DNA of 28,244 bases from a virus. The position numbers and the translations under genes are program-made. The notes below the pieces were generated by a model, which was not told the origin of the DNA, did not search any database, and worked only from the letters and a program-made list of their open reading frames with translations. Positions 13,936 through 28,244 of the stretch are shown one piece after another (the first letter of the stretch is position 1; each line of letters begins with the position of its first letter). The stretch spans positions 1-28,244 of the IMG/VR virus record IMGVR_UViG_3300019880_000041; one strand, given 5' to 3'.

Positions 13936-13936
13936 T

Positions 13937-14173: not shown

Positions 14174-14224
14174 TAAGTTGAAGAAACGTAGGAAGTGACT
14201 CTTCCTCTTCCTCCGAGTAACCGC
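14169..14224 (-). promoter_or_regulatory. candidate programmed frameshift window
   Basis: Between the TAA in the downstream frame (14225-14227) and the chaperone TGA (14171-14169), translation could move from the G-type to the T-type frame. Candidate shift codons are TTT-C (14184-14186; UUU to UUC) and CTT-A (14177-14175; CUU to UUA) two codons before the stop. CUU is the shift codon of bacterial prfB and of the yeast Ty1 heptamer CUU-AGG-C, which is close to the CUU-AGC-U here. A purine-rich SD-like run (GGAGGAAGAGGAAGAG) lies upstream. The direction (+1 or -2) cannot be settled by eye. Confidence 0.55.
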
Positions 14225-14639
14225 TTAACTTTGCGATTTCATTTACGATTGCAGTAATCTCTCCTGCAAGTTTTGACTCTAATTCACTTGGCATCATTGG
14301 CTGAAAACCCGGCCTTCCCCTATATGCCTTGTTAAGAGATTCACATGCCGTTAACGTGCGCAAGAGTTTAAGATCAACCCGCTTGCCCATACTAGGCTTG
14401 CCGGGATTAATCGGCTTCTCTGCACCCTTGCGAACTCTATCGGTTTCTGATTCCGTTAAAGCTGCAATTCTTAAACGACCAGCGCGAGTATTGACATAAC
14501 CAATAACTGCGCTATCGTCAGAAGTTAACCATTGTCTCGGGTCAATATCTTCAACAACTGCGACTTCCGCAACTCCATTGCCAGATATTTCTTCCGAATC
14601 TTCAACTTGACTAGCTAATGCTGGCTTCCGCGTGTCCAT
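14169..14639 (-). CDS. tail assembly chaperone (G-type)
   Basis: The protein has 156 aa; it is soluble, acidic at both ends with a central helical region (KRVDLKLLRTLTACESLNKAY) and an acidic C-terminal run EEEEES. Position just upstream of the tape measure and the frame relation to the next ORF fit the G partner of a G/GT tail chaperone pair, which binds the tape measure during tail assembly. The ATG at 14639 has an AAGGAG ribosome binding site and lies 29 bases before the end of the upstream gene. The gene ends in TGA, with CTT AGC TGA as its last three codons, a plausible shift region. Confidence 0.75.
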   Translation of the reverse strand: MDTRKPALASQVEDSEEISGNGVAEVAVVEDIDPRQWLTSDDSAVIGYVNTRAGRLRIAALTESETDRVRKGAEKPINPGKPSMGKRVDLKLLRTLTACESLNKAYRGRPGFQPMMPSELESKLAGEITAIVNEIAKLSGYSEEEEESLPTFLQLS

Positions 14640-15009
14640 TTAAGTTCTCCTTTATTTCCTGTTCTTCAACTAGATGATCGGTAATCCTGCGACCAACTAG
14701 GGTTCTTGTAGTTTCTACTTGCTCTGTAATTATGTCCATTACAATTATACGAATCGTGTCCCATTTTTCTGCTGGAACTCCAATTTTAATAATGTCAAGG
14801 ACTCGCTTTTGATAAGTCCAATGCAAACCATAAATAATTTGCTGAACCTCACTCTTTAACCCAAGAGGGGGAGAGCCACTTGTTAGAGAAACTCTAGTAG
14901 TTGACTCTCCCTTTTTGGCTTTCTTGGGTTTTGTTTCAGGTGGCTTTTGAATTTGCCTAGCCCTATTCATTTGATCGGGCGTAGGTGCCATGCCCTTAAA
15001 CGGTTCCAT
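14611..15009 (-). CDS. hypothetical protein between major tail protein and chaperone, 132 aa
   Basis: The N-terminus is basic and Pro/Lys-rich (KPPETKPKKAKKGE), followed by a helical body with QQIIYGLHWTYQKRVLDIIK and IRIIVMDIITEQVE, and an acidic C-terminus. There is no membrane segment or Cys. An AAGGAG site lies 12 bases before the ATG, which is rather far. The gene's last 29 bases overlap the chaperone gene. Position suggests a tail-assembly or minor tail role. I do not recognise the family. Confidence 0.6.
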   Translation of the reverse strand: MEPFKGMAPTPDQMNRARQIQKPPETKPKKAKKGESTTRVSLTSGSPPLGLKSEVQQIIYGLHWTYQKRVLDIIKIGVPAEKWDTIRIIVMDIITEQVETTRTLVGRRITDHLVEEQEIKENLNGHAEASIS

Positions 15010-15028
15010 AAATCTTTTAATCTCCTTG

Positions 15029-15049
15029 AAAACTCAATCCTAGAGTTTT
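15029..15049 (-). terminator. terminator-like hairpin just after the major tail gene
   Basis: AAAACTC (15029-15035) and GAGTTTT (15043-15049) form a perfect 7-bp stem with a 7-base loop, three bases after the TAA of the major tail protein. There is no T-run beyond the stem, so it may act as an mRNA-stabilising or attenuating structure rather than a full terminator. Confidence 0.4.
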
Positions 15050-15051
15050 AA

Positions 15052-15540
15052 TTACTGACCGTAAACGTCCTCTGCCTTAAAGGTGATATCCTCAGTCGTC
15101 ACCTTGTCAGACGCCCACTTAATAGTATCTTTTTCAAACGTAACGTTTGCAATGACCGTGTTAGGGTTAACAATACCCGAACCGGGCCAGTTCGCGTTAA
15201 GAATGATAATCTGATATCTAACAAATGGGTCTTGCGAATCATATGTTAATGGCCCTGATGCAGCCGCCGAAGGCGTTGCATATCCATTCCACATTGATCG
15301 CAATGCACCGTTAAGCCAATAGCCCTTAACAGTTCCTGAAACTTCAATACGACCTCTCCGATATCCGGTTCGGCGCGTACCAAGAATAGGAAGTGCTTCA
15401 AGTTTCTGGTCTGCATCGAAATCAATTTCATAGATTTCTCCGATGGTTACATAACCACCAGCAGGGCCAAGTGCCTGTAACAGAATTTCAGAACCATGAG
15501 CTACAGCTTCCGGCTGAATCGACATTAGAGATGGAGACAA
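15052..15540 (-). CDS. major tail (tube) protein
   Basis: The protein has 162 aa and is beta-rich. The pattern starts with helix-poor sequence containing GPAGGYVTIGEIYEIDFDA and repeats strand pairs through GRIEVSGTVKGYWLNG, RYQIIILNANW, ending in TTEDITFKAEDVYGQ, in agreement with siphophage tube proteins. Start is TTG (15540), preceded by a perfect AAGGAGG at 5-6 bases. This strong initiation signal fits a highly made tube subunit. The ATG at residue 6 is too far from the ribosome binding site. It follows the tail-completion gene and precedes the chaperone pair and tape measure. An adjacent hairpin (15029-15049) may protect its message. Confidence 0.8.
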   Translation of the reverse strand: MSPSLMSIQPEAVAHGSEILLQALGPAGGYVTIGEIYEIDFDADQKLEALPILGTRRTGYRRGRIEVSGTVKGYWLNGALRSMWNGYATPSAAASGPLTYDSQDPFVRYQIIILNANWPGSGIVNPNTVIANVTFEKDTIKWASDKVTTEDITFKAEDVYGQ

Positions 15541-15564
15541 ATTTACCTCCTTTTCTTAGAATTT

Positions 15565-16089
15565 TTACACATCAAGAGTGACATAAACATCCCCCTCAAT
15601 GACCACATCGTAACGGTAGAGTTGAGCCGAATCTTCTTTTGATTCATGGCTGTGAATCATCCGAAGATGCCTGATTTTGGAGAGGCGATTTCTATTGTAA
15701 AACATTGCTGCATATACTTCGCTTCCCAATTTTCGGGCCATATCCATTCCTCCTAATTGCTGATCTACCCAAATGCTAATTAGAAAGGACGGACTTGCTC
15801 TCCTACCAAGACGCCATTGTAGCGGTCCCGCGCCTACTCCTGTCTTGTCTATGTCACTAAACGAGCGCGTAGTCTCGACAGGCTCCATGCTAACAATTGA
15901 AATTATAGGTTTAGTCATTTGTTGATGATCCTTAGCCTCCATTTGTCTTATTAATTGCCAAGGCCATCCATCAACAACTAAAACGCCCTTATCATAAGTA
16001 TATCCACTAACTGGAAATGCATTACTAAAATCCCACGCTAAAAGTAAGTTCTTTTTAAGGTCGGTTAGAGGTTCGTCCTGAAGTCCCAT
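15565..16089 (-). CDS. tail terminator / tail-completion protein
   Basis: The protein has 174 aa. A first helix (EPLTDLKKNLLLAWDFSNAF) is followed by alternating strands and helices, the general pattern of phage tail terminator proteins: two strands, a helix, then strands (ISIVSMEPVETTRSFSDID; PSFLISIWVDQQ; LYRYDVVIEGDVYVTLDV). It is placed between the gp10-like neck gene and the major tail protein, exactly where the tail terminator gene lies in HK97-type gene orders. ATG overlaps the neck gene stop (TAATG). Family name inferred from order and layout. Confidence 0.7.
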   Translation of the reverse strand: MGLQDEPLTDLKKNLLLAWDFSNAFPVSGYTYDKGVLVVDGWPWQLIRQMEAKDHQQMTKPIISIVSMEPVETTRSFSDIDKTGVGAGPLQWRLGRRASPSFLISIWVDQQLGGMDMARKLGSEVYAAMFYNRNRLSKIRHLRMIHSHESKEDSAQLYRYDVVIEGDVYVTLDV

Positions 16090-16517
16090 TAAATTCCAGT
16101 GCCTCTTGCAACAATTCTTCCAGCTACCACCGTCTTTCTTGCGGTACTTGCTCTAAGTTCTGCAATAGTAACTGCCCAATATCCACGACCTTCATATGGA
16201 GCGCCAGCTTCGTGACCATATTCAACAAATATAGGATAGTAAACGCGGTGAAATCTATCTCTTGAAATATAAACTTGCCCCGCAGCCACAGCACCCTTTG
16301 ACTTTACCGTTCCAGATTTAACTGAATTCAGTAAATCATAAGTTCTTTTGTATCTAGTATTTGGCCCTTGTGGTCTTGCATAAACATATTCTTGAATATT
16401 CTTTCTAGCAATGTTTTTGCCCTACGCTTTATCTGCAAGTGCAACCCTAGCGGTTAATCTAGTTATTGTTCTTTCAATATCCGTTTCGGGATCGGTAATA
16501 GTGATGCCGCCAGCCAT
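16089..16517 (-). pseudogene. HK97 gp10-like neck/tail-joining gene interrupted by one amber codon
   Basis: A single reading frame of 143 codons runs from the ATG at 16517 to TAA at 16089, and is interrupted only by TAG at codon 32 (16424-16422). The upstream part reads MAGGITITDPETDIERTITR...VALADKA; after the TAG it continues GKNIARKNIQEYVYARPQGP...NRYKRTYDLLNSVKSG and ends ..VAGRIVARGTGI. Long helix, then conserved R/K-rich and Y-rich part and two beta strands (HRVYYPIFVEYGHE) suit the gp10-like family, a neck protein. Other genes here end with TAG (sigma, tape measure, GNAT, 1204-1539), so TAG is not reassigned. Point mutation, sequencing error or readthrough are all possible. Start and stop overlaps (TAATG) are kept on both sides. 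Confidence 0.7.
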
Positions 16518-16963
16518 TACCTAACTACCATTGTGACAGCCTTCCAAAATGACCCATCGGCACTTAAAACAGGATTTTCTAATTTAAACCTAACGCCAGA
16601 AGGGTCGAGAATAAAATCATCATCTTGAACAACCACTAGGTTATAGTTGTCGTCAATGGCAGGGAACTGAACTAAGAATCGCTCCATCCACATTCTTGAT
16701 GAAACTGTATCTCCACCATCCTGCGCAACGCCCCGAAGATTTAACCCATCCCATGTTGCCCAAATTAAAACAGGAGCAGACATAGGATTATCTGTTGATC
16801 GTGGGTTAGGTTGTGTATATTCAGTATTAAGACCCTGTGGGCCTACAGCGACTTCAGAACCTTCTTGAAGTCTGTGATAAAGAGATGCCTGTGGATGACC
16901 ATTTCCAATACAGCATTCTTTATGTAATTGATAAATTTCAATCTGACGATCGGTAGCGGGCAA
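16517..16963 (-). CDS. neck / head-closure type protein, 148 aa
   Basis: The start is TTG at 16963; an upstream stop in frame prevents a longer protein and no strong ribosome binding site is visible. Content is beta-rich (PVLIWATWDGLNLRGVAQDG; NYNLVVVQDDDFILDPSGVR; FKLENPVLSADGSFWKAVTM) with a Cys-containing N-terminal helix. It stands between the connector-like and gp10-like genes, the usual place of head-closure proteins, but the sequence does not match a family I can name. A short ORF just upstream shares an ATDxxxxxx-like pattern but is not in frame. Confidence 0.6.
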   Translation of the reverse strand: MPATDRQIEIYQLHKECCIGNGHPQASLYHRLQEGSEVAVGPQGLNTEYTQPNPRSTDNPMSAPVLIWATWDGLNLRGVAQDGGDTVSSRMWMERFLVQFPAIDDNYNLVVVQDDDFILDPSGVRFKLENPVLSADGSFWKAVTMVVR

Positions 16964-17025
16964 AATTATTTAAGTTCCATTGCTTTTAAAAATTGTCTCT
17001 CCGTAGAATTGCTATCAGTAGCCAA

Positions 17026-17856
17026 TTAATGACTCGCTCTTCCAACTGTTACAGCAGAACCTAATGCGTTTTGTACGTCTGCCCTGAGATTTTCTGCTTG
17101 CGCTCTAATTGAAGCGGGAGAACTCCACCGTTGCATAACTCCTGCTTTAAGTTGTGAACTTTTCGCCAACCTATCGGCTTCTTGGTCCAAAACTTCTGCA
17201 AGAGCGAATTTTGCAAAATACCTTTTGTGATTTTCTGGAACAGTCGGATAGGTGGGGTTTCCTTGACCATCAACGACAGCACTATAGCCAGATGTATAGC
17301 GAACAAAAATGGGTAAACCGGAAGTAGTAGGAATAGGAAAAATATCAATTACTGGCACTCCATCTGCACCCCTTGCGGTGCCCCAAAATCCTTTAGTGTA
17401 ATGATCTAATTCATCAAACATTTCCTCTCGAATAACCCTCTCAGAAGGTTTAGAGAGAATATTTCCCTGAGTATGAAACCAGTTAAATGGCGAAATTGGC
17501 ATTAACTGAAGATATGCTATTTCGGATGCAGCGGTAAAGACCCCTGAAGCCTTAAAGAGAACATCAATAACATCTAAAACTGGAAGTGTAAATCCATTCG
17601 CTATTGAACATGAATACCTACTGACGCCGGGAATAGTTGATAATGGAGAAGTCGGAGGTGTTCCACCAATATTTCCTACAACAATATCACCAATAGGCGA
17701 CCACTTTGCAAATTCTTCAGCAGCATTCTCTACGTAAATCGCCAATGAAGCATCAGGAATTTTAAAGGTCGGTCCTAAATCTTCAATTTGTCCACGAACA
17801 TAGGCAATAACGTCATACGTAAGTGCCGCTCCGATTTTACAAGTAAGTGGGGCCAA
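17026..17856 (-). CDS. head-tail connector (adaptor) protein
   Basis: The protein has 276 aa, helical at N-terminus (YVRGQIEDLG; AIYVENAAEEFAKWSPIGD), then Trp/aromatic-rich core and C-terminal long helices (ALAEVLDQEADRLAKSSQLK; SSPASIRAQAENLRADVQN) as in adaptors that bind the portal ring. It starts at TTG (17856), just after the TAA of the 46-aa gene, with AAGGAG 9 bases upstream. It begins the neck block after the glycan genes. The best reading is an adaptor or head-tail connector of the gp6/gp15 kind. Its stop is followed by 62 non-coding bases before the next gene. Confidence 0.65.
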   Translation of the reverse strand: MAPLTCKIGAALTYDVIAYVRGQIEDLGPTFKIPDASLAIYVENAAEEFAKWSPIGDIVVGNIGGTPPTSPLSTIPGVSRYSCSIANGFTLPVLDVIDVLFKASGVFTAASEIAYLQLMPISPFNWFHTQGNILSKPSERVIREEMFDELDHYTKGFWGTARGADGVPVIDIFPIPTTSGLPIFVRYTSGYSAVVDGQGNPTYPTVPENHKRYFAKFALAEVLDQEADRLAKSSQLKAGVMQRWSSPASIRAQAENLRADVQNALGSAVTVGRASH

Positions 17857-17999: not shown

Positions 18000-18854
18000 T
18001 TAATTATCTCTCCTATAAGTCCACGTATACGTGACTCTACCGGGGATCATACGCTTTAAGTCCCGGTATTCGGTGAGGTAGCGGCGTTCACTTTCAAGAT
18101 AGACAGCGGTTCCAGCTTGCATTCCTTCAGGAATTTCAATGCGATGTTCCTTGCACCATTTTTCAGAGTCGGCTTCTATTTTTGGAATCAAAACTAAGGT
18201 CTGACCGCCCATGTGGTCTATTTCAATTCCGAGAACTCCAACGTGCCAACCGTTTTCAATCGCACGTAAGGGCCAAACTCTATCACCAAAATGATTTAAT
18301 GCAATGTTGTCATCAACACCCAAAACCCTAACAACAGGCTGGCGCATTGCAATAAAAAGGGAATCAAGAATAGCCGCCGGTTGTAGGTCGGTAATTTTCC
18401 GTCCTGTATGTTCCGCAAGCGCACCTTTTTCTCCCTTAAAATTCATCATCGTTCCACCACCACGACCGCCACGGTCATCAACTTCGCTTGATCCACAAAA
18501 ACCAACTATTCCTAAATTACCTTTTTCAACAAATGCCTTAACTAACCGACGATCCCACCCACCTTCATAAAAGATAAGATCGTTATGGCAAAGCGCAACA
18601 ATATCTGCCGTAGTTGCCATATCCGCTAAGTCGGTAATAGGACGATAGAATCCACGATTCGATTCACTTCTAACAACACGAATGGCCCATGGAAAATCCA
18701 AACGCCCCCAATCTCTCTTGTATGGAATCTCTGAACCGTTATCAAAAATTACAATAGTAAGTTGTTCGGGGTCAGCGACCGTAGCAGCTATTGATTGTAA
18801 ACATTTCTCGGTTAAGTCTTGATTATTTACAACGGGAATTCCTAAGTAAAACAC
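18000..18854 (-). CDS. GT2 family glycosyltransferase
   Basis: The enzyme has 284 aa and a GT-A fold and probably transfers a sugar from a nucleotide donor. Motifs are IFDNGS (36-41), NRGF (66-69), the DxD-equivalent HND (90-92) in ALCHNDLIFYEGG, and a later LNHFGDRVWPLRAIENGW, which takes the place of the usual acidic acceptor-site segment. The start is GTG overlapping the GNAT stop TAG (TAGTG). It is the third transferase of the head-region glycan set, grouped with the aminotransferase and acetyltransferase, so it may transfer the N-acylated amino sugar they produce. It could also work on the fibre proteins directly. Donor is unknown. Confidence 0.88.
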   Translation of the reverse strand: MFYLGIPVVNNQDLTEKCLQSIAATVADPEQLTIVIFDNGSEIPYKRDWGRLDFPWAIRVVRSESNRGFYRPITDLADMATTADIVALCHNDLIFYEGGWDRRLVKAFVEKGNLGIVGFCGSSEVDDRGGRGGGTMMNFKGEKGALAEHTGRKITDLQPAAILDSLFIAMRQPVVRVLGVDDNIALNHFGDRVWPLRAIENGWHVGVLGIEIDHMGGQTLVLIPKIEADSEKWCKEHRIEIPEGMQAGTAVYLESERRYLTEYRDLKRMIPGRVTYTWTYRRDN

Positions 18855-19480
18855 TAATCATAACTCTCTATTGCAATTTGATTCACTTCAATCATCTCCT
18901 GCGATATTGAACTAGATGCTATTTCTATAGGGGCTAGTTCCCGAACTACAGGTTTACCTAGTCCTGCAAGAATATCCTGTTCCTTAAATCGATATGATCT
19001 ATTACGATTGTGCTTCATTATCAAAAGAGCCTTGCCGTCAATATGCTTTTCTTCTTGAACTTCATATCCTACACGAATGTCACCAATTAATGCAAGATTA
19101 TCTTTCCAAACATCAATCCAAACATCATTAGCTTCACGATGGCCCATTTCAGTTATGTATGAGATAAGAAATCTAGAAAGACCCTTTGATCTGTAATCCT
19201 TTATTAATCCAGCAGTCATCCAATACTTATCATCATCCCACTTAAGAAGGCCATAGCCAATTGGAGTCAATCTATCATATAGAAGATAAGCTTCAAAAAT
19301 TCCATCACCACGAAACTCGGCTAGATGTTCATTGTAAAAAAGCTTCTGCTGTGGAGTATCGATGTATCCGGTATCGTGAGTCATTCCTTCACGACATTCA
19401 TTCCGAACATCTCTTAATTCAAGCGCCTGATGCCACTCTTCAACGCGAACAAATGAAAGTCTTAGTTTAGATTGCGGCAT
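18854..19480 (-). CDS. GNAT-type N-acetyltransferase, 208 aa
   Basis: The ATG at 19480 has AAGGAG 7 bases upstream, inside the end of the aminotransferase gene; the overlap is 14 bases. A longer frame reaching 19654 lies over that gene and has no better start. The acetyl-CoA loop is YRSKGLSRFLI (97-107) after strand-rich sequence (FEAYLLYDRLTPIGYGLLKW) and before the helix ISYITEMGHR. It ends with a ~50-residue tail beyond the GNAT fold. Placed right after a sugar aminotransferase, it probably acylates the amino group of the sugar, as in FdtC or PseH-type steps, but the substrate is inferred only. The stop TAG overlaps the next GTG. Confidence 0.8.
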   Translation of the reverse strand: MPQSKLRLSFVRVEEWHQALELRDVRNECREGMTHDTGYIDTPQQKLFYNEHLAEFRGDGIFEAYLLYDRLTPIGYGLLKWDDDKYWMTAGLIKDYRSKGLSRFLISYITEMGHREANDVWIDVWKDNLALIGDIRVGYEVQEEKHIDGKALLIMKHNRNRSYRFKEQDILAGLGKPVVRELAPIEIASSSISQEMIEVNQIAIESYD

Positions 19481-20603
19481 GGGACTTCTCCTTAACAAAA
19501 AACGAGTTGACAGTCGTACAAACATATTCTCTTTCCTTTTCAGATAAGTTCCAATGAACGGGAATTGAGACTTGTCGATCTGTGAAACTATCAACACCGG
19601 GAAGTGGATGCTTCTTGAACGGAGCAAAACAGGTGTGAGTATCGCAACGCGCATGAACTTGCGAAACCATTACTTTCTTTTCTTTCATATACTCCATAAA
19701 TTCAAGGCGCTGTTCTTTCGACTCGCAGAGTAAAGTGTAGAGCCAAAATGAAGAGTCTAGTAAATTCGATTGAGGAAACGCTGGCTTCGGGCCTTTCAGG
19801 TTCTCGTAATAAAAACGGGCATTCCTTCTTTGATTTGCAATGATACCTTCTAAATACTCCAACTGAACCATTCCGATTGTGGCATTGATATCGTTCATGT
19901 GCCACTTCCATCCTGCTTCTAAGATATCTTCTTCGCAACGCATATCCTTTCTAGGGGTGTCTCGGTCAATTCCATACCACCTTAGTAATTTTCCACGTTT
20001 ACTATCAGAAGTTCTTTTAGAAGCTAATATTCCTCCATCAACTGAAGTAATGGATTTAATTGCTTGTAATGAAAATGCGGTGAAATCGACATAACCCGAC
20101 CCGACCCTACGATGCCCGTAGAAGGCTCCAAGAGCATGGGCGGCGTCCTCGATCAACCGCACCCCGTACCGGGCCGCTGTGAGGCTCAGGCTGTGCCAGT
20201 CGCAGGACTGACCACCCCAATCCACGCCCATAATCGCCACAGTATCATCTTCGATCTTTCTGGCAACATCTACAGGATCAATTAATCCAGTTTCGCTATC
20301 AATATCTGCCCAAATAATTCTGCCACCACGCGCAAGGATTGCAGTATTTGTTGCAGAACAAGTCATTGGAGTGGAAACTACTGACGTTCCCTGTTTAACG
20401 CCAGATAAATGAAGTCCGAGTTCAAGCGCAGAAGTTCCTGAATTGAGAGTGAGTACGTTCTCATTACCCAAGTAAGTTGCGATCTTTCTTTCAAATTCAT
20501 CTACCTTCTTTCCTTGTCCAATATATCCAGAATGAAGAACTTCCAAGAGTGGTTTATCAACCGCTGCTGGCATATGAACTGCGAAAAGATTTACTTGTTC
20601 CAT
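19467..20603 (-). CDS. DegT/DnrJ/EryC1 family sugar aminotransferase
   Basis: This is a 378-aa PLP enzyme, a typical length, that should transfer an amino group to a keto-sugar nucleotide. Visible signatures: LNSGTSALELGL (53-64), EDAAHALGA (152-160), and FSLQAIKSITSVDGG with the PLP lysine K183, plus a C-terminal domain that ends with a short charged tail. Start overlaps the preceding stop (TAATG). It is directly followed by the GNAT and the GT2 gene, so amination, N-acylation and transfer can be done in turn. No dehydratase gene for the keto-sugar is in the window; the host or other phage genes must supply it. About 120 bases (residues 128-168) are much more GC-rich than the rest. Confidence 0.95.
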   Translation of the reverse strand: MEQVNLFAVHMPAAVDKPLLEVLHSGYIGQGKKVDEFERKIATYLGNENVLTLNSGTSALELGLHLSGVKQGTSVVSTPMTCSATNTAILARGGRIIWADIDSETGLIDPVDVARKIEDDTVAIMGVDWGGQSCDWHSLSLTAARYGVRLIEDAAHALGAFYGHRRVGSGYVDFTAFSLQAIKSITSVDGGILASKRTSDSKRGKLLRWYGIDRDTPRKDMRCEEDILEAGWKWHMNDINATIGMVQLEYLEGIIANQRRNARFYYENLKGPKPAFPQSNLLDSSFWLYTLLCESKEQRLEFMEYMKEKKVMVSQVHARCDTHTCFAPFKKHPLPGVDSFTDRQVSIPVHWNLSEKEREYVCTTVNSFFVKEKSHAAI

Positions 20604-20953
20604 TATATTGCCTTTAGCATAGCTATTGAAAAGAAATCTCCATCATCAACTAATCCGTTGTTATACGTAACGACATACTGACAAACATAGAGAATATGTG
20701 GATCGCTTGGAAGTGCAGGGGCAGGGAAATCACCGGGAATTACTTTATAGTTAAACCTTCCTATTTGTAAGTTTACGTACGTAACCGCCCCGGTTCCTGT
20801 ATGTGTAGTTCCGTCAGGATAAAGGATTCTAAGAGTAATAACTGAATTTGTAGTGTCAGGATTTCTTATATCCTTGGGGGTTTTGTCATCTTTAAGCCAT
20901 GTTTCGACCCACGTTAAATTTGTTTGAGTGCTAAATATAGGAGAGCGCGCCAT
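20603..20953 (-). CDS. hypothetical beta-rich virion protein, 116 aa
   Basis: This small protein is mostly strands (NLTWVETWLKDD; VITLRILYPDGTTHTGTG; AVTYVNLQIGRFNYKVIP; LYVCQYVVTYNNGLVDDGDF). The layout is that of an immunoglobulin-like or BppU-N-type sandwich. It has one Cys. It is coupled to the repeat protein upstream and to the aminotransferase downstream by TAATG overlaps. It may help fix the repeat/LamG fibre to the virion, but this is a guess from its position. Confidence 0.6.
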   Translation of the reverse strand: MARSPIFSTQTNLTWVETWLKDDKTPKDIRNPDTTNSVITLRILYPDGTTHTGTGAVTYVNLQIGRFNYKVIPGDFPAPALPSDPHILYVCQYVVTYNNGLVDDGDFFSIAMLKAI

Positions 20954-22680
20954 TAGTGTGTCCTCATTGTTTTAGTTGTTCCAATTCCATCTCTACTCGA
21001 TGTGATTCCAATTCCATCTCTTGAAGTAAAGTCTCCTACACCATCTCTAGACGAGACAATTCCACCATCTCTAGAGTATACCTCTCCAACGCCATCCCGA
21101 CTCCAAGTTATCGCATCTACAAATACTGGAATTCCAGCAAATATAAAAGCTGCATCAATTATTGATTGAATTACATCTAATGCTGTTCTTAAAAATGATT
21201 GTGGTCGTCTAAGGGTAGAGTCAGAAATAGTTACCAAAACATCGGACGCTGTTCGGTTTCTTGATGTTGATTGTCTTACGGTAGTATCAGATAATGCATT
21301 AAGTGCATCTGAAGCCGTACGAAACGCAGTTGCCTTTCTAGTAGTTGATTCAGTTATTGTAGCCAGTGTATCAATGGCAGTTCTTAAGAACGATTGAGGT
21401 TGTCGGGTTACGCTATCAGATATAACAGAAAGTGAATCACTAGCTGTTCGCAATCTACTCTGAGTGGCGCGGACTGCATTATCGGAAATTGCATTAAGTG
21501 TGTCAGAAGCGGTTCTAATAATACCTTTAATCATAGTAGCAACATCGGAAAGGCCAAGGCCGACATTGCCAGCGTTATAATGCGCTAATCCATCACTTAC
21601 TGAAAGTTCTCGATTGTATATAGCTACATGCGCCATATCCCCTTTATATTGAAGGTTATTTCCATTTCCAGCCAACCACAGAGTTGCCAAAACTCCAAAA
21701 ATTCCAGCAGGGTCATCAGCAACTAAAATACCATCAAAAATTAATCTAAATCGTCCGCCAGTTTTTCTCGTATAAAGAACGTGATGAACACCAGTAGTTG
21801 GAATGACGAAGCTTCCAAAACTATTATGTCTTATAGTTTCAAAATGTGTTGGGTAAGCGGTTCCGTCCCCATTCCATCGATCTAAATGTCCAGTACTAGT
21901 TCCTGTCGTTCCAAAGATATAATCAAGAGAAGCAGGTAATCCATTAAAATGCATCCACCACTCAATGCTTTGCCCATTAACATCATTTAATGCCGCAAGA
22001 ACATTTGCTTGTGAAGCTGCACCATTAACCGTTCCATCACAAGTTAAGGAAGTCGAACTTTCTGAAGGAAGCACATTTGGGCCTCCAAGAGTTGCACCAG
22101 CAACATTAGCGACAGTTAAGTTATAACCATTTCCTGTTGCATCTACAGCTACAGTTCCAACCGAATCATTCATAGGCCAATAGGCCGCTGGACTTTGTGA
22201 AAGGATGTAATTTTTGTAAGAAATTCCAAGACTATCTGTTGCGGTTCGTAAAAAGGACTGTGATTGTCTAAGTGCTGTATCTGAAATTGTAGAAAGTGAA
22301 TCCGCGACTGTTCTAACCCTTGAATGAGCCACCCTAACAGCACTATCGGTTATTGCTGAGAGTGTATCTGAAGCTGTGCGAGAAATTCCCTTAAATACTG
22401 CGGTTGTTTCTGACAATGCAGCAAGGGCATCGGAAGCGGTTCTTTGGAGTTTTATTAACCTACTAGCTGAATCTGATATCGAATTAAGAGAATCAGAAGA
22501 AGTTCTCAGAAAGGATTGAGGATTGCGAAATGCGGAATCCGTAAGTGCTGAAAGAGAATCAGAGGAAGTTCGGGGAAGTGCGACTATTCTAACTGCGCTA
22601 TCTGAAAGTGGATTAAGAGTATCAGACGCAGTTACGCTAGCGTGAGTTCCACTACTAATTAATGCAAGTAATAAACTCAT
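20953..22680 (-). CDS. repeat fibre protein with a nested LamG-like domain
   Basis: The protein has 575 aa. Two arrays of 21-22-residue units (consensus like RTASDSLSAISDSAxRxxQSFL) flank a laminin-G/concanavalin-like domain (about residues 155-375; SPAAYWPMNDS ... GNGYNL; SIEWWMHF; LDYIFGTTG; HHVLYTR; LIFDGILVADD; VAIYNRELS). The LamG sits inside one unit: residues 145-152 (RTATDSLG) match the first half and 377-388 (LSDVATMIKGII) the second half of the neighbour unit RTASDALAALSETTAVFKGIS. Residues 527-570 hold five short SRDG units. No signal or membrane segment. LamG suggests carbohydrate binding. The Ser/Thr-rich arrays may be glycan acceptors. Starts and ends in coupled junctions. Probably a head- or tail-associated fibre, to be verified. 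Confidence 0.75.
   Translation of the reverse strand: MSLLLALISSGTHASVTASDTLNPLSDSAVRIVALPRTSSDSLSALTDSAFRNPQSFLRTSSDSLNSISDSASRLIKLQRTASDALAALSETTAVFKGISRTASDTLSAITDSAVRVAHSRVRTVADSLSTISDTALRQSQSFLRTATDSLGISYKNYILSQSPAAYWPMNDSVGTVAVDATGNGYNLTVANVAGATLGGPNVLPSESSTSLTCDGTVNGAASQANVLAALNDVNGQSIEWWMHFNGLPASLDYIFGTTGTSTGHLDRWNGDGTAYPTHFETIRHNSFGSFVIPTTGVHHVLYTRKTGGRFRLIFDGILVADDPAGIFGVLATLWLAGNGNNLQYKGDMAHVAIYNRELSVSDGLAHYNAGNVGLGLSDVATMIKGIIRTASDTLNAISDNAVRATQSRLRTASDSLSVISDSVTRQPQSFLRTAIDTLATITESTTRKATAFRTASDALNALSDTTVRQSTSRNRTASDVLVTISDSTLRRPQSFLRTALDVIQSIIDAAFIFAGIPVFVDAITWSRDGVGEVYSRDGGIVSSRDGVGDFTSRDGIGITSSRDGIGTTKTMRTH
20971..21102 (-). repeat. five SRDG micro-repeats at the C-terminus
   Basis: Residues 527-570 comprise SRDGVGEVY, SRDGGIVS, SRDGVGDFT, SRDGIGITS and SRDGIGTTK, 8-9 residues each. 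The DNA shows the matching CCATCTCTAGA-like units on the plus strand. Function unknown; such short Gly/Asp units can bind metal or form beta-solenoid turns. Confidence 0.85.
21124..21552 (-). repeat. second array of 21-22-residue protein repeats
   Basis: It encodes residues ~377-519: the second half of the split unit, then units beginning at residues 389, 411, 433, 454, 476 and 498. It shares the consensus with the first array, including RQPQSFL and RRPQSFL units. The last unit decays to RTALDVIQSIIDAAFIF. Confidence 0.85.
22225..22632 (-). repeat. first array of 21-22-residue protein repeats
   Basis: It encodes residues ~17-152: six full or partial units starting near residues 17, 37, 59, 80, 101 and 123, and the first half of the unit begun at 145. 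Each starts with RT-[AS]-x-D-[ST]-L. PQSFL or QSQSFL endings recur in several units. The Ser/Thr content is high. Confidence 0.85.
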
Positions 22681-22683
22681 TCA

Positions 22684-23382
22684 TTAGTAAGCAGTTACTT
22701 CAGCAACTCTAGCTGTAAACGATGCAACCCAAACACCAGTACCGGGAACAGAAGCGCGAATTGCAATCCCCTCGTTTTGAGCGCAAACAATGGGATATGC
22801 ATTTTGATCTGGAACGGCGGGACTTGGATATATAGGAACAGCGCCGGGATAACCAACAGAAATTTGCGCAGAAGATTGAACTCCTACTTGAGTTTCGCCA
22901 CCAGCTACTGCAACACCCGTTGAAGTGTTTCCTCTAATTACGCGCAACGAAACAGTCGCAAGAGTTTTAGTTCCTGCACCTAATGCAGCGGTAGTTGCAA
23001 TACGAGCAGTTGCAGTTGGAGCAGCAAAAGAAGTACGAAGTTTTTCTGGAACCTGCGTAGCGCCACCAGTACCATCAACAGTCCATGCAGTTGCGCGTAT
23101 AACATCAAATGCCCATGTTCCAGCAACGAATGCTGTGGTGGCAACAAAACTCTCTAATACAACATCATAAATGAGAAGAAGGTTAGCTCCGGTATATCTT
23201 AATTGGAGAATTTCACTAGCAGCAGCAAGACCAGCCGCCATTGATCCAGTAACGCAACTTATCATGTATTGACCAAGAGAACCTACGTCATCAGGCTTAA
23301 GAATAACGTGCATTCCCTTTTGTGAAGCTGCGCCTACTTCAGCTAACGCACCGCTTGTTCCGCCAATAATTGGAAGTCCCAT
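22684..23382 (-). CDS. hypothetical virion structural protein, 232 aa
   Basis: A Gly/Ala/Val/Thr-rich protein with MGLPIIGGTSGALAEVGAASQ at its start, then strand pairs throughout (MHVILKPDDVGSLGQYMISC; LLLIYDVVLESFVATT; FDVIRATAWTVDGTGG; IAIRASVPGTGVWVASFTARV). This pattern is common in phage head or tail accessory proteins and gives no enzyme signature. The ATG follows directly on the TAA of the upstream gene. Five bases and a second in-frame stop separate its end from the repeat gene. Likely a decoration or fibre-associated subunit. Confidence 0.65.
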   Translation of the reverse strand: MGLPIIGGTSGALAEVGAASQKGMHVILKPDDVGSLGQYMISCVTGSMAAGLAAASEILQLRYTGANLLLIYDVVLESFVATTAFVAGTWAFDVIRATAWTVDGTGGATQVPEKLRTSFAAPTATARIATTAALGAGTKTLATVSLRVIRGNTSTGVAVAGGETQVGVQSSAQISVGYPGAVPIYPSPAVPDQNAYPIVCAQNEGIAIRASVPGTGVWVASFTARVAEVTAY

Positions 23383-23682
23383 TTAAATCCAAACCCATCC
23401 TACATTGTATTTGCCATAGAGTTTACCCGGTGTCATTCCTCCGATTGGGGGATCGGTACAAACTCCAAAAATAGTAATCGTATCGTTAACCTTCCAAGTA
23501 GCGGATACTTTTATGTTTTCAATTCTATGTTCATCTAAAGTATGATCTGTAGTTGCAGCAGGTTGTATCCAAGCTTCAACTAAAGAAGTGGCGACAACTC
23601 CGACAGTAGAAACGTCTTGTGTGATATCAGTTTTACCGGGAAACGCGCCAAAGTCCAGTAATACAGAACCAGAAGCACTCAA
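23383..23682 (-). CDS. hypothetical beta-rich protein, 99 aa
   Basis: The start is TTG (23682), directly following the TAA of the upstream gene; no strong ribosome binding site is visible, so it depends on coupling. The protein has strands such as SGSVLLDFGAFPGKTD, GVVATSLVEAWIQPA, KVSATWKVNDTITIFGVCTD and a Trp-ended C-terminus (NVGWVWI). There are no catalytic motifs. It is probably a small virion component placed between the 69-aa and 232-aa genes. Confidence 0.6.
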   Translation of the reverse strand: MSASGSVLLDFGAFPGKTDITQDVSTVGVVATSLVEAWIQPAATTDHTLDEHRIENIKVSATWKVNDTITIFGVCTDPPIGGMTPGKLYGKYNVGWVWI

Positions 23683-23892
23683 TTATTCTTTATCACTACT
23701 AGCTTCGGTTTTTTCTGTTTCCACCAGAGAACGAGAACCACCAAGAAAATGACCAGACGTAATAACACCGGAGTCAATAGTAACTTCAAGTTTCTTCAAT
23801 TCCTTTACTAACTTCATTGCCTTAGCCGTTACGTTCTTATCGATATTTTCATCGGTTGCTCGACCATGAATTGAAAGGTAGAAATCTGTCAT
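23683..23892 (-). CDS. hypothetical protein, 69 aa
   Basis: The start at 23892 is chosen because its ATG overlaps the preceding stop (TAATG); the frame also has an ATG at 23910, deeper within the upstream gene. The protein begins TDFYLSIHGRATDENIDKN and has a helix of KAMKLVKELKKLEVTID, followed by a Ser/Thr/Glu tail. It is soluble and without Cys. Function unknown. Confidence 0.55.
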   Translation of the reverse strand: MTDFYLSIHGRATDENIDKNVTAKAMKLVKELKKLEVTIDSGVITSGHFLGGSRSLVETEKTEASSDKE

Positions 23893-24971
23893 TAAAGTGT
23901 CACCGTCCAAGTTACTCGGATCGTATCACCAGAAGCAGTAACTGTACCCTGAGCAGAAAGAAGAGTTTCTAAAAAGAGAAGTGATCCCGCAGCAGCGAGC
24001 GAATTACACATTACAACTTTAGCTAATGTAATCGCTCCCGCTCCGTTATATGTCCATGTATGGTCAAGAATGTAAGTTCCTGATCCATAAGTAGGAGCAG
24101 TACCACCACCCTGTCCACAATAAGCTCTTGCTAAGTTTGCACCAGAACCACCACCTGTTCCTGAAACAGTTTCAGTAGCAGCGCCACCACCAGTACCATC
24201 TCCATATAAACCATCAGCAGTTCTTAAAATATCTCCTGCGGCGGCGGCTGCAACAGAAGTTGAAAGTCCAACCCATGCCGCCCAAGACATTCCCGGCAAA
24301 ATAACGTAGTTTCCTGTTGCATTTGGAGTTGTACCAGCCGCACCAGTTACGGGAATTGCATACCATTGATCGACAGTAATAACCGTTGCAGTATTAGAAA
24401 CGCAAACTCCAAATACTGCGGAACCTACGCCCGAGTTATTAGGGCCAACAAAGATTAACTTTCCTTGAAGTCCTGTGTTTCCAGCAGAACTTGCGCCTGT
24501 TGGTAAACCACCACCTGCGGGAGTTGCAGTATTAACAGAAACTGCCGTTAATGCACCCGCTTGTCCGTTACCAACTAATGCACCAATATCGCCCATTAAC
24601 AAAGGACGCTGCCATTGATCGCGGCCCATTGTTACGCGAAGATTCTTAGTTCTCCGAATAGCAGTTAATTCGCGTCGCTGGAAATCCCAAGCGCGATCAA
24701 CCCAAACGCCCTTTACTAATACAGGATCAGTAAAGTTTCTAGGGTCTTTTACTAAAAGTCTTTTGTCAATTTTTTGTCCGTGAGGAACGAGGGTTGTGAA
24801 CGTGGCTTCTACGGGATTTCGTGCAAGTTTGAAGCCATTCTCAAAACCTATCGGATCGATGATTCCTCTATTTCTGAGCCAAGTATCAATCCTTAAATGC
24901 TTGCGGGGATCGCGTAAGCGAACTAAAATACGACTTTCTTCTTCTATTGCATCAAGTGTATCTTGCGTCAT
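23892..24971 (-). CDS. hypothetical virion protein with Gly-rich C-terminal part, 359 aa
   Basis: The N-terminal ~140 residues are charged and look helical to mixed (LDAIEEESRILVRLRDPRKH; RKHLRIDTWLRNRG). The rest is Gly/Ala/Thr-rich beta sequence (GKLIFVGPNNSGVGSAVFG; VITVDQWYAIPVTGAAGTTP; TWTYNGAGAITLAKVVMCNS) ending in VTVTL-type strands. This resembles phage fibre or decoration proteins that carry a small anchoring domain. The ATG overlaps the previous stop TAATG. It could be the acceptor protein for the sugars made by flanking enzymes, but no direct evidence exists. Confidence 0.6.
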   Translation of the reverse strand: MTQDTLDAIEEESRILVRLRDPRKHLRIDTWLRNRGIIDPIGFENGFKLARNPVEATFTTLVPHGQKIDKRLLVKDPRNFTDPVLVKGVWVDRAWDFQRRELTAIRRTKNLRVTMGRDQWQRPLLMGDIGALVGNGQAGALTAVSVNTATPAGGGLPTGASSAGNTGLQGKLIFVGPNNSGVGSAVFGVCVSNTATVITVDQWYAIPVTGAAGTTPNATGNYVILPGMSWAAWVGLSTSVAAAAAGDILRTADGLYGDGTGGGAATETVSGTGGGSGANLARAYCGQGGGTAPTYGSGTYILDHTWTYNGAGAITLAKVVMCNSLAAAGSLLFLETLLSAQGTVTASGDTIRVTWTVTL

Positions 24972-25222
24972 TAATATGCATCCGAAGCGTATTCATTTGT
25001 TCCGGTCGGCCCCATATCGTCATTAACGCCCTGATCTGCGGGTTCAACAGCTTGTGAAGTTTGAATCTGCATTGAAGCATATGTCTCTTCGATGTTTTCA
25101 ATTAACTGTTCCATGGTAGTGACATTGCCAGCTATCATTGCTTTAAGAAGAGTGTTGTACGTAATGTTATCCCATTGATCGTGATTGTCAGATGGGATGC
25201 AACACCCACAACTCATGCACAT
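24971..25222 (-). CDS. small CxxCGC protein, 83 aa
   Basis: The sequence starts MCMSCGCCIPSDNHDQWDN, with five Cys in the first eight residues, then a helical segment (TYNTLLKAMIAGNVTTMEQL) and an acidic Ser/Thr tail. The N-terminal motif (CMSCGC-x-P-x-D-x-H) recurs in small proteins of actinobacteria and their phages, to my recollection, and suggests a metal-binding knot. The ATG overlaps the FkbM stop (TAATG). Function unknown. Placed at the end of the transferase group. Confidence 0.65.
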   Translation of the reverse strand: MCMSCGCCIPSDNHDQWDNITYNTLLKAMIAGNVTTMEQLIENIEETYASMQIQTSQAVEPADQGVNDDMGPTGTNEYASDAY

Positions 25223-25899
25223 TATCTATCCCAAAGCCCCCTCTTTTTAAAGTAAATGTCGTCATGTTCTTCAATTGGTGTCAATTTCATATATCCTTTA
25301 GTTGATAGAAAATCAATTACCTCTTGGGCTGACGCCTCACCATCGTACACCGGAGTAGCCGAACACTCGACCACTAGGAAAGCAAAGGCTGACAGTAACG
25401 ATCCAAAGCCTTTTAGAACTTCTAATTCCATTCCCTGAGCGTCAATCACTAAAGTGTTATATGATTCAATCATTACAAGGTTATTGTGATTCTTAAACCA
25501 AGTATCAAATCTAACCATAGGAACAGAAATTTCTTGCGTTACTGGAATCTTAGTCCAGTCATGACCTTCAGTTTCTATAGGAAGATACTTTGAACTTTTT
25601 TCGTGATCGCCGTCCTCTGGAATATGCAAAGTAAGAGGTTTATTTTCATCCCCTAACGCGAATGGGGAGCAAAGAGCAAACCTTCCATAAATCCGGTGTA
25701 ACTCTTTAAATGCTACTGGATGTGGCTCAAATGCGATAATTGGAAGATAGTAATGACATAGATACCAAGGAATCTCCTGTCCAGTATTGGCTCCAACGTG
25801 AACAATTCCCTTGATTGGAAAACCATTTTCAGGGAAATATTCAACATGGGCGCGCTCTAACTCATGCATTTCTTCCGTACGTAAACTTGGACGATTCAT
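25222..25899 (-). CDS. FkbM family SAM-dependent methyltransferase
   Basis: A 225-aa O-methyltransferase. Motifs: HVGANTGQE (34-42, SAM loop), AFEPHP (56-61), LGDENKPLTLHIP (82-94), and VIDAQGMELEVLKG (151-164), the FkbM signature. Members methylate hydroxyls of sugars or small molecules. With two glycosyltransferases upstream, it probably caps a virion sugar, as known in some phages and flagellin glycan systems. The ATG overlaps the GT2 stop (TAATG). No partner for DNA methylation is present, so that role is unlikely. Confidence 0.9.
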   Translation of the reverse strand: MNRPSLRTEEMHELERAHVEYFPENGFPIKGIVHVGANTGQEIPWYLCHYYLPIIAFEPHPVAFKELHRIYGRFALCSPFALGDENKPLTLHIPEDGDHEKSSKYLPIETEGHDWTKIPVTQEISVPMVRFDTWFKNHNNLVMIESYNTLVIDAQGMELEVLKGFGSLLSAFAFLVVECSATPVYDGEASAQEVIDFLSTKGYMKLTPIEEHDDIYFKKRGLWDR

Positions 25900-26600
25900 T
25901 AGACTCTTGCAAATCCTCTATTAAATGCAGTTATATATTTTTCATCACCGGGAATGCCGCCCCATTTTGCAATGTAATAATCACGGCATTTCGCCTGAGC
26001 CGCGCCTAACATTCCCCTTCTTTCATCACTAGTTCTAACTGTCATTGATCGATAGTGCCAGTAGGGTGCATAAGCGTACGCTTCAAATCCCGCGAGTTGG
26101 ATTCTTCTATGCATATCATTATCTTCGTAGTAAGCCGGATTAAAGTGTTCGTCAAATTCACCAACATTGTCAAACAACTTACGAGTAGTCGCAAAGCAAG
26201 AAAAGTCAGGGCCGGGTTGGAACTCAGGATTTTTTGCATTTAATAACTTCCAATTAACTTCATCCGTAAACATATCACCGTGATTGGCATGACGAGCAGA
26301 GATAAGAAGTAATTCCCTATCATAGCCCATCGTGAACTGTCTTTCTAGTAATGCACTAGCTAATTCTTCTCCGGTGGTTGGTCGAAGGACAATATCATCA
26401 TTCATAATAATTGCAACATCAAAACCCTCTTCCCTGCAAAGCCTGTTAATTGCGAAGTTCCACGCCTTTGAAAGGGGCCATCCATAGATACTATTGTCCA
26501 CTACAAGTAATCGGGAACCCTTGGGGATAGATTGAATGGTTTCTACTAACCGAGCGCCATTCCATGTGGCAATTGCATATGCATATCTAAATCTAGCCAT
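25899..26600 (-). CDS. GT2 family glycosyltransferase
   Basis: A compact 233-aa GT-A enzyme. Visible: LLVVDNS (31-37), the DxD-type NDD (67-69) in IIMNDDIVL, GPDFSCFATTRK (130-141), GEFDEHFNPAYYEDNDMHRR (147-166) with the acidic ED pair at 159-160, and the C-terminal YWHYRSMT. This is a full set for a small GT2. It is tightly linked with the upstream GT4-type gene (TAATG overlap) and the FkbM methyltransferase. It lies close to the capsid gene, so a virion protein glycan is likely. Donor and acceptor cannot be read from sequence. Confidence 0.9.
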   Translation of the reverse strand: MARFRYAYAIATWNGARLVETIQSIPKGSRLLVVDNSIYGWPLSKAWNFAINRLCREEGFDVAIIMNDDIVLRPTTGEELASALLERQFTMGYDRELLLISARHANHGDMFTDEVNWKLLNAKNPEFQPGPDFSCFATTRKLFDNVGEFDEHFNPAYYEDNDMHRRIQLAGFEAYAYAPYWHYRSMTVRTSDERRGMLGAAQAKCRDYYIAKWGGIPGDEKYITAFNRGFARV

Positions 26601-27862
26601 TACAAATACTTCCCTATAATTTTCATAACCGATTCAGCCTGTACTTCTAATGAGTGATATTTTCTAACATATTCAGCACCCTTTTTGCCTTTGCCATTTC
26701 CGTCTTTCCAATTCTCATAACACTTAGTTAATTGCGAAACAGCATGATGTTCGTCTGGAACCCACCAATTTCCAACTTGACCGAATTGTGTGGTATATCG
26801 ACTGGAAAACCCCACATTAGGTATATTCGCAGGTTCCATACCGGCAGTTCTAATCGGATAACACCACTTTTCATCTACAAAATCCCTCATGCCTGAATTA
26901 TCAGAACAGACTAATTCCATTCCAGTAGACATTGCTTCAAGTGGTGGTAATCCGCATCCTTCTCCTTTGGAGGGCCATAACAAACAATCATAGTGATTGT
27001 AAAAGTCAATCAATTTATGGGGCGGCGTATCATTTAAAATGACATTAATCCTAGGGTCATTTTCTGCAACTTTAATTACATCATGAATTCCATCTGCATT
27101 TCTCGATTTGATACAGAGTTCCCAATTAGGATTACCTTTAGAGGCATGTTGGAAAATTCTAATAGCCCCCATAGGATTCTTTCTTCCAGTTAATGCGCCA
27201 AGAATAAGAACCTTAAATTTGCCATCATTAGATCGTTCCTTATATGGAAAGGCATCCGTGTCAACACCTGACTTCATAACGGATATAGGAATCTTGCAAC
27301 CGCTTCTTTTCCAGATATCAGGTTGAAAACTTGAAGTTACAATTAAATGATCCATTGTGTTGACGTTTTCAACGTGTTTTTCGGGAATATGATCTGTTTC
27401 AAACTGAGTAATGATTATTTTATAGATTGATTGAACTTGGAAAATATGATATGGAAGCGTCATCATCAATGCTAGTTTAAGGGGCATTTTTCCAGCGTTT
27501 AAATAACGTGTAGATGAAATGTCACTTGGGAGATAGTTAGTGTCTATTCCCCATCCATCAGTTCTTAGAATTGGATGAATACCTATTTGCTGAAGTCCCT
27601 TGTAAATAGTTAATGCGTGACGACCATATCCGTCAACCGCCGACAAGGGACACCAGAAATCAAAAGTTTGCAATCCCTCGGAATCAACTGTTCGCATTTG
27701 CTCAGAAAATGATGAATAGTCAAATTCAAAATCCTTATCGAATCCATACTGTTCAACAAAGCTAATGGGAACCGTTTGCCACACACCGGGAGCGATAGTG
27801 TAGTTCCCACATATCTTGGAAACGTTCGCTTTATTTCGTACTGGAATTTGTGTATTAATCAT
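26600..27862 (-). CDS. GT4-type glycosyltransferase with an N-terminal extension
   Basis: A 420-aa GT-B enzyme. The C-terminal half has the donor-site features: LGALTGRKN (221-229) and SKGEGCGLPPLEAM (298-311), with the E-x7-E pair E301 and E309, plus SGVD (198-201). The first ~45 residues (VRNKANVSKICGNYTIAP, then GVWQTVP) form a small beta-type segment that I have not placed in the transferase fold; it could be a virion-anchoring or carrier-binding part. The ATG follows a hairpin after the capsid gene; only AGAGA precedes it as a weak ribosome binding site. It is the first gene of the glycan block. Confidence 0.9.
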   Translation of the reverse strand: MINTQIPVRNKANVSKICGNYTIAPGVWQTVPISFVEQYGFDKDFEFDYSSFSEQMRTVDSEGLQTFDFWCPLSAVDGYGRHALTIYKGLQQIGIHPILRTDGWGIDTNYLPSDISSTRYLNAGKMPLKLALMMTLPYHIFQVQSIYKIIITQFETDHIPEKHVENVNTMDHLIVTSSFQPDIWKRSGCKIPISVMKSGVDTDAFPYKERSNDGKFKVLILGALTGRKNPMGAIRIFQHASKGNPNWELCIKSRNADGIHDVIKVAENDPRINVILNDTPPHKLIDFYNHYDCLLWPSKGEGCGLPPLEAMSTGMELVCSDNSGMRDFVDEKWCYPIRTAGMEPANIPNVGFSSRYTTQFGQVGNWWVPDEHHAVSQLTKCYENWKDGNGKGKKGAEYVRKYHSLEVQAESVMKIIGKYL

Positions 27863-27879: not shown

Positions 27880-27906
27880 GAGGGGCTGACACTTTGCCAA
27901 CCCCTC
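27880..27906 (-). terminator. strong hairpin between capsid and glycosyltransferase genes
   Basis: Left arm 27880-27891 and right arm 27895-27906 form a 12-bp stem (two G-U pairs on the RNA) with a 3-base loop. On the minus strand it is followed by TCTCCTTTTTATAG. It lies between the capsid stop (27933) and the transferase start (27862), so it can end most transcripts and lower expression of the glycan genes compared with the capsid. Confidence 0.7.
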
Positions 27907-27932: not shown

Positions 27933-28244
27933 TTAGAAGGTCAGCGGCTGCGGCCCGATAACTGGCTGGAAGCCGTAAGACTTCGTAACAAAGTCTGCGC
28001 TTCTTTCACGAATATTTCGTGTCCAAGAATCGTTGTTCAAATACGCACCTGTACCGACGTTGTAATCCCCGTAAATGGCTGGCATAACCTGTAATGGAAC
28101 GTAGGGTGCATAAATGTGCGAAGCCCACATCTGCGGAGGATTTGCGAGATACAAGAACGCAACGTTATCGGGAAGAAAGTCAGTACCCCAAATCTTCCAA
28201 CGTCCTGCATATGTTCCGTAATCGGTAATACCGATTGATGCAAG
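27933..28244 (-). CDS. major capsid protein, C-terminal 103 residues (runs off the right edge)
   Basis: The frame is open from the right edge to the TAA at 27933. The visible sequence includes GITDYGTYAGRWKIWGTDF, LPDNVAFLYLANPPQMW, IYAPYVPLQVMP and ends GFQPVIGPQPLTF. The aromatic 'YAPYVPL' element and the 'DFLPDN' element, in a long uninterrupted frame before neck and tail genes, fit the C-terminal part of phage major capsid proteins (HK97-fold). The gene's N-terminus is outside the window, so length and family are not determined. It is followed by a strong hairpin, as expected for a gene that needs much message. Confidence 0.8.
   Translation of the reverse strand, partial: LASIGITDYGTYAGRWKIWGTDFLPDNVAFLYLANPPQMWASHIYAPYVPLQVMPAIYGDYNVGTGAYLNNDSWTRNIRERSADFVTKSYGFQPVIGPQPLTF

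Follow-up and report, generated by a model that had tools for sequence, protein, structure and literature searches.

A head-gene-coupled sugar-modification set in uncultured tailed phages with a T4-type capsid: a probable virion-glycosylation module

The IMG/VR virus record IMGVR_UViG_3300019880_000041, analysed here over its whole length of 28,244 bases (the window), carries genes for six predicted sugar-modifying enzymes next to the gene for the major capsid protein. The main genes of the window lie on the minus strand. Leftwards from the right edge, the end of the capsid gene (103 codons) is followed by genes for a GT4 glycosyltransferase, a divergent glycosyltransferase (GT2a) and an FkbM-family methyltransferase, and then by seven genes mostly without known family. 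Further left lie genes for a DegT-type aminotransferase, a GNAT-family acyltransferase and a GT2 glycosyltransferase (GT2b), after which the head-tail and tail genes follow, including that of the tape measure protein (Table 1). The guanine-plus-cytosine (GC) content is 40-44% along the full length, with uniform base composition. In an original prediction made from the sequence, these genes had been described as an unusually complete sugar-modification set, split into two blocks around about 5 kb of virion-type genes and likened to the virion glycosylation systems of mycobacteriophages.

Table 1. Features of the window; L and G numbers designate the other records compared.
Feature	Position	Strand	Basis
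Major capsid protein (T4 Gp23 type), C-terminal 103 residues, cut by window edge	27933..28244	-	synteny and identity to relatives
Terminator-like hairpin between capsid and GT4 genes	27880..27906	-	12-bp stem and T-rich tail
GT4 glycosyltransferase, 420 residues	26600..27862	-	PF00534 5e-15; PHROG 2170 3e-35
GT2a, divergent GT-A fold glycosyltransferase, 233 residues	25899..26600	-	PHROG 29879 'galactosyl transferase' 2e-19
FkbM-family methyltransferase, 225 residues	25222..25899	-	PF05050 3e-16; TIGR01444 1e-14
Small protein, N-terminal Cys-rich MCxxCGC-type motif	24971..25222	-	relatives in L002, L003, L004, L005, L006, L009
Interleaved presumed virion genes	20603..24971	-	23892-24971, 23683-23910, 23383-23682, 22684-23382, 20953-22680, 20603-20953
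DegT/DnrJ/EryC1/StrS sugar aminotransferase, 378 residues	19467..20603	-	PF01041 8e-77
GNAT-family N-acyltransferase, 208 residues	18854..19480	-	PF00583 0.002, under cut-off
GT2b, GT2 glycosyltransferase, 284 residues	18000..18854	-	PF00535 5e-10; relatives in G001, G007, G004, L031
Head-tail and tail genes ending in tape measure, closing the module interval	10420..17856	-	PHROG, Pfam, synteny

All six enzymes were recovered at the predicted minus-strand open reading frames (ORFs) with Pfam or PHROG matches and intact motifs, and the predicted coordinates hold save one, since the GNAT gene probably starts at 19480 rather than 19654. The Pfam cut-offs are cleared by GT4, FkbM, DegT and GT2b. 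The EGCGLPPLE (EGxGLPPLE) motif is intact in GT4, as is the S-adenosylmethionine-binding motif VGANTGQE in FkbM, and DegT has the pyridoxal phosphate lysine (SLQAIK) together with an IEDAAHA motif; the nearest solved sequences of DegT are 4zwv/4xau, followed by CalS13, ArnB and 2fn6. In GT2a the NDD and EDND motifs are invariant. A predicted model of this protein, of moderate confidence (mean predicted local distance difference test score, pLDDT, 59), retrieved GT-A glycosyltransferases as its best Foldseek matches in the PDB (top match 9omn, 9e-5). The GNAT profile matches a solved N-acetyltransferase (5e-4), a YRxKGLSR motif is present, and a relative in L222 clears the Pfam cut-off with 36.8 bits. 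No match among the sequences of solved structures was obtained with the GT4 (E limit 1e-12), GT2a or GT2b profiles. Hydropathy analysis detected no strongly hydrophobic segment in any of the six, and the enzymes look soluble. Synonymous differences between the window and either G001 or G007 are near saturation (0.65-0.82 per site), whereas the nonsynonymous differences per site of the six enzymes amount to 0.16-0.47, similar to those of the tested tail genes. The enzyme genes are under purifying selection.

The placement of the set directly after the capsid gene was borne out by comparison with relatives. The C-terminus encoded at the window edge is 68-90% identical to the ends of full-length capsid proteins, one of which (in L005, with a C-terminus 83% identical to that of the window) matches the T4 Gp23 family (PF07068, 1e-15) and is adjoined by a T4-type (Gp20-type) portal gene (PF07230, 9e-31). 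The gene upstream of GT4 is thus assigned from its sequence as a T4 Gp23-type capsid gene. A stem is found at the site of the intervening hairpin, with other sequence, in G001, G007, G005 and G008, and is missing from G004; the structure, a strong hairpin, is kept while the sequence changes, and a clear T tract is seen only in the window and in G001-type copies. The hairpin may act as an attenuator, lowering the expression of the enzymes relative to that of the capsid.

Stop and start codons overlap by 1 bp throughout a first series comprising GT4, GT2a, FkbM and the genes at 24971 and 23892, and likewise in the second block for the genes at 20953 and 20603 and DegT, as well as between GNAT and GT2b; the overlap of DegT with GNAT is 14 bp. 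The enzyme genes and the presumed virion genes are consequently packed into a single tight series. The downstream head-tail and tail genes, which include PHROG tail matches at 15052-15540 and 14169-14639 and the tape measure gene at 10420-13935 (PF10145, 8e-13), keep an identical order in G001 and G007. Behind the tape measure gene, 6704-10420 encodes a 1238-residue protein with 20% Ser/Thr and no Pfam or PHROG match.

The lineage was delineated by two scans with capsid sequences rather than with enzyme sequences. Its capsid is of the T4 Gp23 type by Pfam, yet only 21-25% identical to that of any isolated phage, and a search for a prophage or host in 84,980 species, each represented by one genome, gave no capsid match. 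In all ten contigs with enough sequence past the capsid gene (window, L002, L003, L004, L005, L006, L009, L010, L031 and L032), the first sugar gene downstream is a GT4 relative; three of them (L002, L003 and L004) are nearly the same, which brings the number of independent cases closer to eight. These GT4 relatives are 45-71% identical, and the gene is usually the next one after the capsid, with small ORFs intervening in L005 and L006. In L032 an HNH endonuclease gene (11346-12017), possibly a homing-type insertion, sits between the two. Contigs without GT4 end at the capsid gene or within about 1 kb of it. The GC content of the lineage contigs ranges from about 41 to 71%, and the capsid-GT4 association thus survives large compositional change. 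The capsid gene of L027/G006 (10001-11590) lacks the usual C-terminus and runs into unrelated sequence, as would result from a frameshift or a chimeric assembly.

Two ARRANGEMENTS are seen in the lineage, namely the two-block order (window, G001 and G007) and one contiguous block. The recurrence of the two-block order in G001 and G007, which the gene-order comparison proposed in the original prediction brought out, indicates that the arrangement is not due to chance. In G004 (= L005) and L031, a single block contains GT4, a dehydratase, GT2a, DegT, GT2b and GNAT, to which G004 adds a nucleotidyltransferase and FkbM. L032 carries GT4, a nucleotidyltransferase, a GT2, FkbM and a second methyltransferase, and G008 gave matches to GT4, nucleotidyltransferase, dehydratase and FkbM, with a weak match to GT2b. 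The comparison of the one-block and two-block orders marks the enzymes as one functional set, into which some 5 kb of other genes are placed in the branch of the window. Second copies of GNAT or FkbM occur in relatives (G004 7772-8254 and 10100-10777; G007 4466-5143) and suggest that the decorating steps vary between phages.

Conversely, the set proved less complete than first proposed. Neither a dehydratase (PF01370) nor a nucleotidyltransferase (PF00483) was found in the window or in G001, although relatives carry them. G001 (L002) is a 69,908-bp contig classed as linear whose ends overlap by 70 bp; as L003 spans these ends at 100% identity, G001 is taken to be a complete, circularly mapped genome. 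A 4,6-dehydratase is present in G004, G008, L031 and L222, and G004 encodes both a dTDP-glucose-4,6-dehydratase-like and a glucose-1-phosphate-cytidylyltransferase-like enzyme (dTDP, deoxythymidine diphosphate). Lacking these steps, the set is not self-sufficient in the branch of the window, which probably draws a nucleoside diphosphate (NDP)-4-keto-6-deoxy sugar from the host.

Several of the genes interleaved between the two blocks keep their order in G001 and G007. The only family match, in an interval otherwise almost devoid of them, is to Laminin_G_3 (6e-7), in the protein encoded at 20953-22680, which also contains Ser/Thr-rich repeats (24% Ser/Thr, 12 repeat units). The repeat unit has 21-22 residues (RTASDSLSAISDSA...) and the protein ends in SRDGVG-like repeats. 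Its counterparts in G001 (66366-68342) and G007 (23513-25852) have about 25% Ser/Thr and, across the family, a unit number varying from 12 to 16; the region beside the repeats is replaced between relatives, and no match to the repeat protein was found in isolated phages. The predicted model of the 23892-24971 protein has a pLDDT of 32. The small Cys-rich protein is retained within or beside the sugar module in L005 (17990-18169), L006 (12760-12894) and L009 (13006-13158).

The coupling to head genes claimed for the window is strongly supported and reaches far past it, both in the lineage contigs and in other lineages. Among uncultured viruses, GT2a relatives were found in at least 439 stretches and DegT relatives in at least 520. 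In L222 and L231, genes in the order DegT-GT2b-GNAT-FkbM-GT2a-RmlB lie a few kb before a non-T4 portal gene, with GT4 confirmed in L222, and L201 and L203 hold similar cassettes. Like that of the window, these four combine DegT, GT2b, GNAT and GT2a and adjoin terminase or portal genes, with FkbM, dehydratase and GT4 also in L222. They differ in the portal, in a GpA-type terminase where one is seen (L201), and in their placement ahead of the portal gene (in L203, past the capsid gene), while the window set lies between a T4-type capsid gene and tail genes. Partial sets in L040, L043, L044, L045 and L090 adjoin terminase, portal, protease or capsid genes, the head genes beside such sets having been confirmed by PHROGs. 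Outside the clade, rich cassettes were associated with head genes (Fisher test, p 0.022), a result that is suggestive only, as the head-gene profiles were partly seeded from the same loci. A Cpn60 chaperonin gene (L222 2922-4544) adjoins the DegT gene of the second-lineage cassette.

The enzymes also appear to be largely viral in their affinities. Among 80 viral DegT loci, 21 contain a GNAT relative and none of 80 bacterial DegT loci does, the profile used being of viral origin, which favours viral matches. In a quick DegT tree, the window sequence groups with viral sequences only, and the viral rows require 4 label changes compared with about 54 in shuffles (a fast method, giving modest support). 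Against bacterial genomes, the best DegT matches reach 44% and are spread over many phyla, with no host signal. Among 50,697 isolated-phage records, DegT relatives occur in only 15, and GNAT or GT2b relatives in none. In one isolate, Microbacterium phage Magritte (L118), a distant GT4 relative (7983-9113) lies between the tail terminator and major tail protein genes, and this phage may serve as a cultivable test case for virion glycosylation.

Capsid glycosylation by phage glycosyltransferases is described for Che8, Corndog and Myrna (Freeman et al. 2023 as cited in PMC12363180, PMC12619734 and PMC11256854). According to these citing papers, the known mycobacteriophage targets are the capsid and the tail tube, and Che8 gp110 and Corndog gp38 are reported to be essential transferases for capsid glycosylation; in the related phage Maravista, the transferase genes are located close to the 3' genome end (PMC11256854). 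The predicted window system resembles these in its phage-encoded glycosyltransferases and proposed virion-protein target, and differs in that its head operon contains, besides three transferases, enzymes for amination, acylation and methylation. The suggested likeness to the mycobacteriophage systems did not extend to the sequences: in tblastn searches of the isolated-phage records the GT4 matches named no mycobacteriophage and GT2b gave no match, GT2a not being searched in this way and Che8 gp110 and Corndog gp38 not being compared directly. A mycobacteriophage relationship was rejected on the GC content of 40-44%, the lack of homologues and the low identity of the capsid (21-25%) to that of any isolate.

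In its logic, the set matches the UDP-Vio4NAc pathway (R141, L136 and L142) by which mimivirus makes its fibril glycans, the gene cluster of which adjoins a gene for a glycosylated fibril protein and which yields a 2-O-methyl-Vio4NAc product (PMC9614988). Shared elements are a 4,6-dehydratase (in relatives such as L005), an aminotransferase, an N-acetyltransferase (here predicted), transferases and methylation; conversely, in the tailed phage GNAT replaces a PglB-like acetyltransferase, the methyltransferase is of the FkbM family, and the branch of the window is without a dehydratase of its own. Flavobacterium phage immuto (MW353176, L117) likewise encodes several glycosyltransferases, WecE-type aminotransferases, a methyltransferase and an epimerase, its DegT being 40% identical. 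No paper describing the present cassette was found in a literature search, in which Freeman 2023 and Pyle 2024 were known via citing papers. Phage virion glycosylation is already known; the novelty lies in a portable cassette for sugar synthesis, coupled to head genes, in lineages that have no isolates. The wider proposal is that such a cassette (DegT, GNAT, FkbM, GT4 and two GT-A enzymes, with dehydratase and nucleotidyltransferase optional) was inserted by head genes in several unrelated tailed-phage lineages, drawing on a largely virus-specific, reassorting enzyme pool and yielding a variable coat of methylated N-acyl-amino sugar, as a counterpart to the glycan pathway of mimivirus; we regard the case for it as evenly balanced.

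In combination, these data confirm the observation on which the original prediction was built and partly support, while considerably extending, its interpretation, with the virion as the proposed target. Judged from sequence, the set probably serves virion glycosylation in a lineage of uncultured tailed phages whose capsid is of the T4 type. The virion is favoured because of the constant capsid-GT4 linkage, the interleaving with presumed virion genes, the recurrence beside unrelated head genes and the mycobacteriophage precedent. During late gene expression, the host would supply the NDP-4-keto-6-deoxy sugar, most simply dTDP-4-keto-6-deoxyglucose, which some relatives would make themselves via their own dehydratase and/or nucleotidyltransferase. 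DegT would aminate the keto-sugar, probably at C-4 as suggested by its nearest solved relatives, and GNAT, whose family is supported, would N-acylate the resulting amino sugar. In the cytoplasm, the three soluble glycosyltransferases could then assemble a short glycan straight onto a virion protein; the constant, perhaps protein-proximal, transfer would be that of GT4, and FkbM may add an O-methyl cap to a sugar. Expression of the enzymes would be held below that of the capsid by the hairpin that follows the capsid gene. The most likely acceptors are the capsid protein, which is the sole constant neighbour of the module within the lineage, and/or the accessory virion proteins encoded between the blocks. 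In the two-block branch, the Ser/Thr-rich repeat protein would make an attractive further acceptor, but it was not found in G004.

Several points weigh against this assignment. Two of the six enzyme calls are weak, GT2a (PF13641, 22.2 vs 27 bits) and GNAT (18.7 vs 20.7 bits) remaining under their Pfam cut-offs in the window. The label 'virion-type' originally given to the interval of about 5 kb is supported by position and synteny, but not by family matches, of which there is almost none. Some relatives (e.g. L032) are without DegT or GNAT, and the sugar would therefore differ between phages. No head gene was detected beside the cassettes of L041 and L269, and the neighbours of the immuto cassette in a 17-kb stretch are nucleases and hypotheticals, with no annotated head genes. 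The glycan and its acceptor, the identity of the sugar, the order of steps, the attenuation and the biological purpose are as proposed here predictions from DNA.

Alternatively, the enzymes might modify the host envelope, through serotype conversion or receptor masking, their site in the head operon merely giving late expression. O-antigens and capsules are made by enzymes of these families, and serotype-converting genes are known in phages (also PMC12619734). Nevertheless, this is unlikely: in eight lineage members neither a Wzx-type flippase (PF01943) nor an initiating phosphoglycosyltransferase (PF02397) was found, GtrA-type flippases not being searched for, late expression coupled to that of the capsid would not protect the producing cell in time, and the link to head genes is kept across unrelated lineages. 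Even less probable is a role in decorating hypermodified DNA bases. DNA-modifying glycosyltransferases encoded by viruses do exist (Pyle et al. 2024, as cited in PMC12619734), but thymidylate synthase (PF00303) is absent in eight lineage members, no recognised base-modification enzyme was seen among 48 other ORFs of G001 and G004, and the set is flanked by capsid and tail genes and does not sit among replication genes. The lack of thymidylate synthase, flippase and lipid-initiating transferase, together with the soluble character of the enzymes, favours glycosylation of virion proteins in the cytoplasm over modification of either DNA or envelope.

That the virion is glycosylated on the repeat protein, as a fibre- or lectin-like appendage, instead of on the capsid is a smaller but appreciable possibility. 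This protein is rich in Ser/Thr over its 12 to 16 units, lies between the enzyme blocks with coupling to the second, and is identically placed in G001 and G007. Such repeats may, however, be purely structural, and the repeat family was not found in the G004, L031 and L032 contigs, which keep the enzymes; as the only acceptor in the lineage the protein was rejected, being absent from G004. The differing enzyme content of relatives would also fit recently acquired passenger genes decaying without virion function, but purifying selection, stop/start coupling, kept order and uniform base composition make this explanation barely tenable.

Soil phages do not normally meet antibodies. The glycans of mycobacteriophage virions have been reported to shield particles from these. 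A conserved amino-sugar pathway built into the operon of a soil-phage head cluster raises the question of a glycan coat serving in protection, particle attachment, adsorption or stability. The capsid-GT4 link is a simple sequence marker by which glycosylated virions can be predicted, and the recurrence of the cassette makes the frequency of sugar-coated phages testable.

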